A stretch of DNA of 64,000 nt from Candidatus Gastranaerophilales bacterium (GTDB lineage: Bacteria > Cyanobacteriota > Vampirovibrionia > Gastranaerophilales > Gastranaerophilaceae): assembly GCA_944322855.1 (NCBI GenBank), contig CALUQG010000001.1, forward strand, positions 62,001 to 126,000, in the 5' to 3' direction. Every line of letters begins with the position of its first letter. Positions within the stretch are counted from its first letter, which is position 1. Under the pieces are notes generated by a model that was given only the letters and a program-made list of their open reading frames with translations, searched no databases and was not told the origin of the DNA. Position numbers and translations under genes: made by a program. Below, piece by piece: positions 51,065 through 52,547 of this stretch.

Positions 51065-52080
51065 TTTACCATAGAATTTGCCAAATAATCATTTCACCCT
51101 ACGGGGCTCTTCTCACCTAAATTTCATTTCGGAAACATGTTTACACTGGAAAGTCTACAAAGAATAGTTTGGGTTCATTAGTTGGTGTTGGGCAGGTATG
51201 CCCAACCTACAACTTCGGAAACAGGTTTAAGCAACCCACTTTTTGTTGGTTCGCTTTGTTTCCCCACGGAGAGGGAAAATAATTAAGATAAATTCTTTGC
51301 ACAACAACAAACCGATTATCTCCCTGTCATCCTGAAGCGTGGTTTTGGAAATTAATGCTTTAGTCTGGTGTGTTCAGGATCTTAGATTTTTCTGAGTACA
51401 GCAATAATCTTTTTTATTATTTCTATTATGTTTATTTATTATGTTCATTTCTTTTCTTTTGAACTGCTCAGGCAAAAGAAAAGAAACGAACCAAAGAAAA
51501 GAAAAACCGGAGCTATCAAAAAACACTGTAAATTTTCATCATAAATTTTGCATCCACTTCACTAACGTTTCGGTCTGTCAAAATTCATACTGAAAATCAA
51601 CAGTGTTTAACCAAAGTCACAACGGCAAAGCCGTATTACCTCTTCGAGGTTTAGTTATTCTTTTCTCTCTAAGTCGGGAACGAAATTACTGACGTCGGTT
51701 GGGCATAACGGATTTCCTTCATATTGGGACAGTTTCTCTCGTCTTTTAAGTTTAATCTCTATACAGCCTGAAAAAGCTGGGCTTTTGACTTAGCTTTGCT
51801 TAAAACAATAAGTCGTAGGTTGGGCATACCTGCCCAACACCAACAAAAAGGCGAAACTGTCCGAGCATGAAGAAAATACAAGACGCAGATTTTGGCTAGT
51901 GCGGAGTCGACCGTAGGGAACTAGCACGTCCTGTGAGGGCGGACGTTACTCCGCCCGAACGGCCAATAATCCAGGACACCTGCCCAACAGCTCGCAAAAG
52001 CCGTGATTTTTGACTTAGCTTTGCTTAAAACAATAATCTTTTTGATATTTTTAAATTTTGATAATATAAATTTCATTTTT
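51065..52080. repeat. Repeat-rich intergenic region without genes
   Basis: About 1 kb with no credible gene. It contains two GTTGGGCA/TGCCCAAC hairpins (51187-51206 and 51821-51840), one GTTGGGCA remnant near 51700, one CGGAGAGGG-AAATAATTAA unit (near 51266) and a TGTCATCCTGA...TTCAGGATCT arm pair (near 51327-51390). A 29-base direct repeat occurs at 51785-51813 and 52008-52036, and a GC-rich foldable block at 51895-51965. Reading frames inside are interrupted. The same hairpin and CGGAGAGG units occur at 27.9 kb. Confidence 0.75.
51895..51965. other. GC-rich self-complementary block
   Basis: Much richer in G+C than its surroundings. GGGCGGA (51937-51943) pairs with TCCGCCC (51950-51956); an alternative nested fold pairs ACGTCC (51926-51931) with GGACGT (51940-51945) and GCGGAGT (51901-51907) with ACTCCGC (51948-51954). 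It may be part of a mobile or structured RNA repeat. No known RNA family was recognised. Confidence 0.45.
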
Positions 52081-52097: not shown

Positions 52098-52547
52098 ATG
52101 GGCAGAAAGATTATCGCAAGCAACAAAAAAGCTTTTCATGACTATACAATAGTCGAAAAATTTGATGCCGGTCTTGTTTTGACAGGTACCGAAATCAAAT
52201 CTATACGAAAAGGCTCAATCAACTTAAAAGACGGGTTTGCAAAAATTGAAGACGGCGAAGCCTGGCTTTATAATGTACACATAAGTCCCTACGAACAAGG
52301 CAACAGGTTTAATCCCGATCCTGACAGAAAAAGAAAGTTGCTGTTGAATAAAAACGAAATTTTGAAAATGTTAGGAAAAGTCAAAAAAGAAAAATATACA
52401 ATTGTTCCTCTTAATGTATTTTTAGAAAACGGCTGGGCAAAATGTGAAATAGCACTGGCTAAAGGTAAGCTTTTGCATGACAAACGGGAAGATATAGCTA
52501 AAAAAGCTATGGATAGAGATATTGCGAGAAATTTTAAAGTCAGATAG
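52098..52547 (+). CDS. smpB: SsrA-binding protein
   Basis: 149 aa. It binds tmRNA and rescues stalled ribosomes. 'NKKAFHDYTIVEKFDAGLVLTG' is split over the conserved beta-barrel start, followed by 'TEIKSIRKGSINLKDGF', 'LYNVHISPYEQGN' and the basic tail 'LLHDKREDIAKKAMDRDI'. The length is typical. The tmRNA gene (ssrA) is not in the window. Confidence 0.97.
   Translation: MGRKIIASNKKAFHDYTIVEKFDAGLVLTGTEIKSIRKGSINLKDGFAKIEDGEAWLYNVHISPYEQGNRFNPDPDRKRKLLLNKNEILKMLGKVKKEKYTIVPLNVFLENGWAKCEIALAKGKLLHDKREDIAKKAMDRDIARNFKVR

Follow-up and report, generated by a model that had tools for sequence, protein, structure and literature searches.

A dispersed three-way-junction repeat of Gastranaerophilales and their phages, probably a non-autonomous miniature mobile element

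Introduction

Several described systems of small, folded mobile DNA resemble the repeat unit reported here. The closest prior idea comes from the cyanobacteria, a sister lineage, in which Elhai and colleagues in 2008 are said to have described very small mobile repeats (SDRs) that are tiny, nested in other repeats and without a known enzyme. SDRs reportedly span 21–27 nt and have no branched fold with covarying arms, and our unit would differ from them in both respects. Transposons of the IS200/IS605 group, moved by a Y1 HUH transposase, have hairpin ends with an extrahelical base and leave no target duplication. The unit shares the extrahelical base near its ends and the missing target-site duplication; unlike these transposons, it holds both ends in one hairpin, contains no gene and needs no resident Y1, and no Y1 gene was found in it or in any parent among the loci examined. 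Integron attC sites take part in recombination as folded single strands, have extrahelical bases and carry the R'/R'' core GTTRRRY/RYYYAAC. In contrast, the conserved ends of our alignment show no such core motif by eye, and no cassettes lie between tandem units.

PMC3733652, PMC6006769 and PMC8266576 describe REPs and REPINs with their RAYT (TnpAREP) as short, dispersed, extragenic hairpins with an unpaired stem base that are non-autonomous and form composites with other repeats, all of which applies to our unit as well. A REP is a hairpin of 20–40 nt, whereas the unit is a three-way junction of about 92 nt. It also differs from REPs in having no GTAG or CGTC tag at its foot (the consensus is GC at the 5′ end and AAGAC at the 3′ end, and the preceding base varies), in not lying beside RAYT genes, in being present where Y1 is absent, and in being inserted in REP loops. 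Among the open-licence literature on REP, RAYT, REPIN and HIP we found no published description of the family.

Results

A 92-nt repeat unit in an intergenic gap

In a 64,000-nt stretch of DNA from Candidatus Gastranaerophilales bacterium (the window), a sequence-only reading had singled out a GC-rich foldable block at 51895–51965. The block is real, but these limits take in only the interior of the repeat unit, which covers 92 nt at 51885–51976 and is the sole match to our covariance model in the window (Table 1). The unit sits in the gap between rpmE (ribosomal protein L31, by Pfam match) and an ORF at 52098–52547 that we take to be smpB. The sharp contrast in base composition claimed for both flanks holds on the right, where G+C falls from 63% at 51900–51959 to 12–32% from 51990 on, and is milder on the left (35–52% across the preceding 150 bp). 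That no frame explains the block was borne out: the sole ORF that overlaps it is a mechanical one of 72 aa on the minus strand, and we could make out no gene. Relative to the family consensus, this copy has A for G at 51887 and G for A at 51974, one change in each conserved end, and may therefore be decaying.

Two mutually exclusive sets of stems had been named, and both are present. GGGCGGA (51937–51943) complements TCCGCCC (51950–51956), and ACGTCC (51926–51931) with GGACGT (51941–51946) is nested within GCGGAGT (51901–51907) and ACTCCGC (51948–51954). The folding energy of the 71-nt block is unremarkable (z −1.76; 11 of 200 shuffles equally stable); unlike folding energy, repetition and covariation are far above chance. 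Genome searches and a covariance analysis of the copies, both proposed in that reading, yielded dispersed copies that covary, and no coding remnant was found.

Table 1 Features of the repeat unit and its immediate neighbours in the window
Feature	Position	Strand	Basis
Repeat unit (mobile three-way-junction element)	51885–51976	+	Model R1, 77.2 bits
Closing stem P1, 5′ strand; outermost pair 51887–51972 broken in window copy	51887–51896	+	Alignment, covariation, model match
Closing stem P1, 3′ strand; unpaired T at 51967	51962–51972	+	Alignment, covariation, model match
Arm P2, 5′ strand GTGC, partner 51924–51927	51899–51902	+	Covarying columns 17-50, 18-49, 19-48, 20-47
Mini-hairpin CC-GTA-GG (GNA triloop) within P2	51911–51917	+	Read from sequence; GNA loops enriched across family
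Arm P2, 3′ strand GCAC	51924–51927	+	Covariation
Arm P3: GT/AC base, tandem G.A step (51935–51936 with 51957–51958), stem GGGCGGA/TCCGCCC, loop CGTTAC	51933–51960	+	Covariation, model match
C completing 3′ tag (consensus AAGAC; window copy AGGAC)	51977	+	Flank counts, empty sites
Sister-element 3′ remnant (..GAAGAAAATAC AAGAC) abutting unit	51850–51884	+	Same order, with fuller sister element, in L010 and L009
REP palindrome, right half (CCTGCCCAACA)	51979–51989	+	Other copies with unit between both halves; empty sites
Intact GTAG-tagged REP palindrome	51815–51839	+	Tagged-palindrome reading
Intact GTAG-tagged REP palindrome	51186–51210	-	Tagged-palindrome reading

Copies, hosts and modular build

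The window's own genome (G000) holds the unit at 22 places by BLAST, partial ones included, and gives 24 matches to the covariance model. All 23 genomes of the genus contain model matches, with 2 to 50 per genome, as do 66 of 194 genomes sampled from the phylum, and all 66 belong to one family (f1). When the window copy was the sole query, BLAST found units in no more than 23 of 59 genomes, G000 among them, which indicates that the sequence diverges quickly under a lasting fold. A two-end search pattern (GCGGATTTTG, 45–75 free bases, CAATAATCCAAGA), applied to a collection of 84,980 species, matched 67 stretches with 72 occurrences (58 distinct); the records are mostly titled Candidatus Gastranaerophilales, Melainabacteria or uncultured bacterium, with one Heliobacteriaceae and one Muribaculaceae title. 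Copies of the repeat are scattered through the genomes of a single bacterial family, whose members are gut bacteria related to cyanobacteria but not photosynthetic, and also occur in phages.

The constant part of the unit consists of GC at the 5′ end, the stem foot and AAGAC behind the foot, and the closing stem of the family reads GGATTTT../..AATAATCC with one unpaired T. Element length is roughly 73–140 nt; an arm is longer or swapped in some units (for example, an AT-rich P3 in L033, L035 and L041), and sister elements combine the same ends with a different interior. In one genome (G183), eight copies selected for their similar scores are almost the same in sequence and have a flanking repeat in common, so composites also multiply. 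Searches against Rfam 15 returned no match above the gathering score for the window and, in 12 loci, only the L10 leader, which lies outside the units; comparison of the window unit with named plasmid and phage records gave no match. In the window's own genome, units occur at or near contig ends (for example, C22:1-102 and C3:154-256).

A three-way junction conserved by compensatory change

We aligned 47 units by sequence alone, namely 45 of the 58 distinct occurrences (13 near-duplicates were omitted), the window copy and one copy from its own genome. When column pairs were limited to those with 85% or more standard pairs, mutual information was highest for 18-49, 13-87, 19-48 and 14-86; these four strongest covarying pairs lie in arm P2 and at the inner end of P1, where the search pattern had prescribed no letters. 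Over the whole three-way junction, 87.5% of cells pair (71.8% when shuffled), double-sided changes occupy 196 cells (67.5 when shuffled, s.d. 8.3), and the covariation score is 0.409, compared with 0.143 for shuffled and 0.064–0.154 for slid alignments. Two of the five fold measures are unimpressive: further pair types show no excess (38 vs. 40.1 shuffled), and the number of pairs with a double change (15 vs. 12.9 shuffled) was reached by 27 of 500 shuffles. In P3, where length varies and the alignment shifts, 69% of cells pair. The core of P1 is invariant by construction, its letters being those of the search pattern; copies from phages and from other genomes have C-G in place of its inner G-C (GGATTTTC../..GAATAATCC). 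The unpaired T of P1 is present in all 47 rows, although 45 of these rows had been found with a pattern that prescribed those letters, and recurs in copies found by BLAST in the own genome and in relatives. A three-way junction on one strand is conserved, with two arms varying by compensatory change; the unit is probably preserved as a folded single strand.

Of the two alternative stem sets, GGGCGGA/TCCGCCC proved to be arm P3 and is backed by covariation, whereas ACGTCC/GGACGT with GCGGAGT/ACTCCGC scores 0.164 against a shuffled mean of 0.161. This absence of covariation leaves a switch between the sets unsupported, and we rejected this reading.

Seven-base mini-hairpins with a GNA loop number 45 in the units, against a shuffled mean of 17.5 and a largest value of 29 in 200 shuffles, and P2 triloops are GNA in 21 of 30 cases with RNA parameters and in 11 of 17 with DNA parameters. 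GNA mini-hairpin loops are exceptionally stable in DNA, and we therefore infer that the fold is one of single-stranded DNA, though the units counted are related to one another.

Precise insertion, usually after A and in some cases at stop codons

An A stands directly before the unit at 37 of the 51 distinct sites outside tandem arrangements. At 8 distinct sites, which make up 10 of 72 rows, the stop codon of the upstream ORF takes its last base from the unit, namely its first G; this is offset +1, and the only other offsets listed within 20 bases are −17 and +20. Such sites include rplL and one where the end of the upstream ORF resembles, in our own assignment, GroEL. We attribute the pattern to the preference for A together with selection, since a sense insertion after TA keeps the stop when the unit starts with G. 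Other units lie behind terminator T-runs or in palindrome loops such as GTAGGTTGGGCATA^CCTGCCCAACA and GTCATTCTGA^GCG.., or stand in tandem next to their own kind, and they occur in both orientations relative to neighbouring genes. The ORF-based classing of sites is crude, with 18 of 54 'inside an ORF' (mostly on the opposite strand) and at least one wrong (rplL, L113), and serves for orientation only.

Three further sites are unusual. In L094 (401–484), a unit lies in frame within a 142-aa ORF without a Pfam match and is apparently translated, resembling the translated palindromic elements known from Rickettsia. In two lake records (L111 and L120) and one Gastranaerophilales record (L134), units occupy the stop of apparently the same 185-aa gene (..NEYLDR[CV]*), which would be either an old common insertion or a hot spot. 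On the reverse strand of L132 (3200–4400), units and tRNA-like 3′ ends are repeated together beside a tRNA-like sequence.

Occupied sites were then compared with empty ones. After removal of the unit in silico, 26 of 88 flank pairs have a counterpart in another collected stretch that spans the junction; since tandem arrangements and places represented twice account for many of them, our conclusions rest on the clear pairs only (L016/L010, L036/L121, L114/L121, L131 vs. its own paralogue, and L046 vs. window 51585–51525). None of them has a target-site duplication: 0–3 bases follow AAGA, and the old sequence resumes. At rplL, 24 loci of the genus gave 22 distinct gene ends (one end was not found, and two loci are one place), all of which end in TAG; the unit is present only in G009, and the other 21 run straight into unrelated sequence. 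The smpB locus carries the unit in 1 of 23 fetched loci; it was rejected as an empty site for the window copy because gene order around smpB differs among relatives, and it shows only that 22 of 23 lack the unit. The terminator site of L128 was likewise rejected as a clean empty site, since G015 holds a different hairpin repeat where G006 has the unit. Around a T-run in L217/L218, the G006 unit faces the other hairpin repeat of G015 as if one had replaced the other.

Phages provide further pairs. In a Mu-like phage, in which Pfam identifies an F protein, a portal and a terminase, the unit lies at the end of the F-like gene in four contigs that agree in their flanks (L280–L283), whereas L284, with an F-like protein 98% identical, has no unit at that place. 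In a second phage group (terminase by Pfam), units of L237 and L238 stand at the stop codon of a 285-aa protein, whereas L239, 94% identical to the L237 protein, has a plain TAATAG and no unit. Both comparisons indicate insertion without target-site duplication, and model matches occur in 7 of 69 phage loci searched (123 were fetched). The element inserts precisely, without target-site duplication and usually after A.

Little association between units and Y1/RAYT genes

Y1 (PF01797) was the sole enzyme family tested against the distribution of the unit. Y1/RAYT genes are absent from G000. They are present in 22 of 60 genomes of the family, in 9 of 22 unit-bearing genomes (absent from 13), and in 9 of 29 further genomes chosen for high, low or zero copy number. 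Of 20 genomes of the genus that were tested, Y1 is present in 7 and missing from 13, and every one of the 20 has units; copy-rich genomes without Y1 include G007, G011, G014, G018 and G183. Help from a RAYT in trans, or in the past, would be compatible with these counts. Around the Y1 genes themselves, a unit is found in only 2 of 33 loci, whereas at least one palindrome behind a GTNG-like tag is found in 24 of 33, some of the 33 being one place reached twice. These results suggest that REPs go with RAYTs and that the unit is a separate element using REPs as landing sites; a RAYT as owner of the unit is not supported by association.

Some tagged REPs sit inside the Y1 gene. The RAYT genes of L077 (1425–1752) and L083 (1427–1752) have a tagged REP in front and a second REP within the coding frame. 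REPs inside the tnpAREP gene are described for HuH subclass 2.4 in PMC6006769, and PMC1525189 presents REPs as known targets of insertion sequences.

We found no replication-strand bias of the units (30 vs. 26, p 0.69); single-strand transposons usually show one. No autonomous parent with the same ends was present in the loci examined. One candidate of 622 nt, in L132, has no clear gene inside it, and the 3′ ends that lack a standard unit (in G000, G183 and G227) are truncated copies, variants or chance matches.

Discussion

We interpret window 51885–51976 as one copy, with slightly decayed ends, of a non-autonomous, gene-less miniature mobile element, a reading to which we give a probability of about 0.7 and which follows from insertion without target duplication at occupied and empty sites, including those in phages. 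The suggestion of a mobile-element end was thus correct as to mobility, in view of dispersed copies, covariation and empty sites, but the unit is a whole miniature element and not an end. As for movement, the evidence is evenly poised on whether the unit would travel as folded single-stranded DNA, with a trans-acting enzyme that reads the stem foot, the unpaired base and the end tags, cuts and rejoins. Cutting would occur on both sides of the unit, which would then be joined behind an A where single-stranded or hairpin-loop DNA lies exposed. An HUH-type enzyme would be the likeliest kind, a tentative assignment given that the resident Y1/RAYT family is not tied to the unit. Phages may serve as vehicles, and a unit nested in another repeat may also be carried along when that repeat is copied, as the near-identical G183 composites suggest. 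The bolder proposal is a new class of mobile DNA. Its whole body would be a three-way junction of single-stranded DNA in which the foot stays constant and the arms evolve freely; an enzyme other than Y1/RAYT would move it in trans and join it to chromosomes and phages, and at stop codons its own first base would complete the stop. This we consider possible but rather doubtful.

The unit could instead be an ordinary substrate of RAYT (Y1), in effect a REP that is long and branched but moved in the same way as the GTAG palindromes. A hairpin foot with an unpaired base and insertion without target duplication are features of REP and IS200/IS605 (PMC8266576), Y1 genes exist in the family and units lie inside REPs. 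The lack of a GTAG or CGTC tag, the absence of Y1 from the window's genome, from most unit-bearing genomes and from copy-rich ones, and the company that Y1 genes keep, tagged palindromes far more often than units, make this unlikely. Mosaic junctions with common short stretches (for example, L019) and the exchange of one hairpin repeat for another between G006 and G015 would also suit repeats without an enzyme of their own, exchanged or nested by template switching or recombination in replication; against such an origin, units keep constant ends and are cleanly joined to sites that have nothing in common, the ends of single-copy genes and phages among them, and we judge it quite improbable.

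A structured RNA (a 3′-UTR or small RNA) with a cellular function, its spread being secondary, would account for the strongly conserved fold and for the several copies just past stop codons in sense, which would therefore be transcribed. However, it has no Rfam match, its positions are not conserved (the rplL and smpB copies each being solitary), both orientations to neighbouring genes occur, and near-identical dispersed and phage copies are expected of a mobile element; the mostly GNA mini-hairpin loops would also suit DNA. We found no specific support for the RNA element that had been suggested for the block, and hold this explanation to be very improbable. Least probable of all, to the point of being hardly tenable, is a MITE derived by deletion from a DDE transposon with inverted ends: the unit is short, gene-less and dispersed with complementary ends, yet matched sites have no target-site duplication, no parent with the same ends was found in the loci examined, and covariation keeps interior arms, for which the movement of a MITE has no use.

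Miniature repeats in bacteria tend to be plain palindromes or the ends of transposons, whereas here selection keeps a branched one-strand fold, as covariation attests, in an element that demonstrably inserts, also into phages. With a constant foot and matched occupied and empty sites, what moves orphan bacterial repeats becomes directly testable. Near-identical and tandem copies probably break assemblies too.

Neighbouring repeats in the window

The surroundings of the unit contain further repeats besides those of Table 1. An inverted repeat at 51521–51608, 83% complementary (AAACACTGTAAATTTT..), is part of another dispersed repeat, and L046 holds a unit inside the same repeat. The unit-bearing stretch is flanked by a perfect 29-nt direct repeat (TTTTGACTTAGCTTTGCTTAAAACAATAA) at 51783–51811 and 52008–52036. 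A GTCATCCTGAAGCGTG..TTCAGGATCT repeat occupies 51300–51385 and elsewhere adjoins units or is fused to them, for example in L012 and L019.
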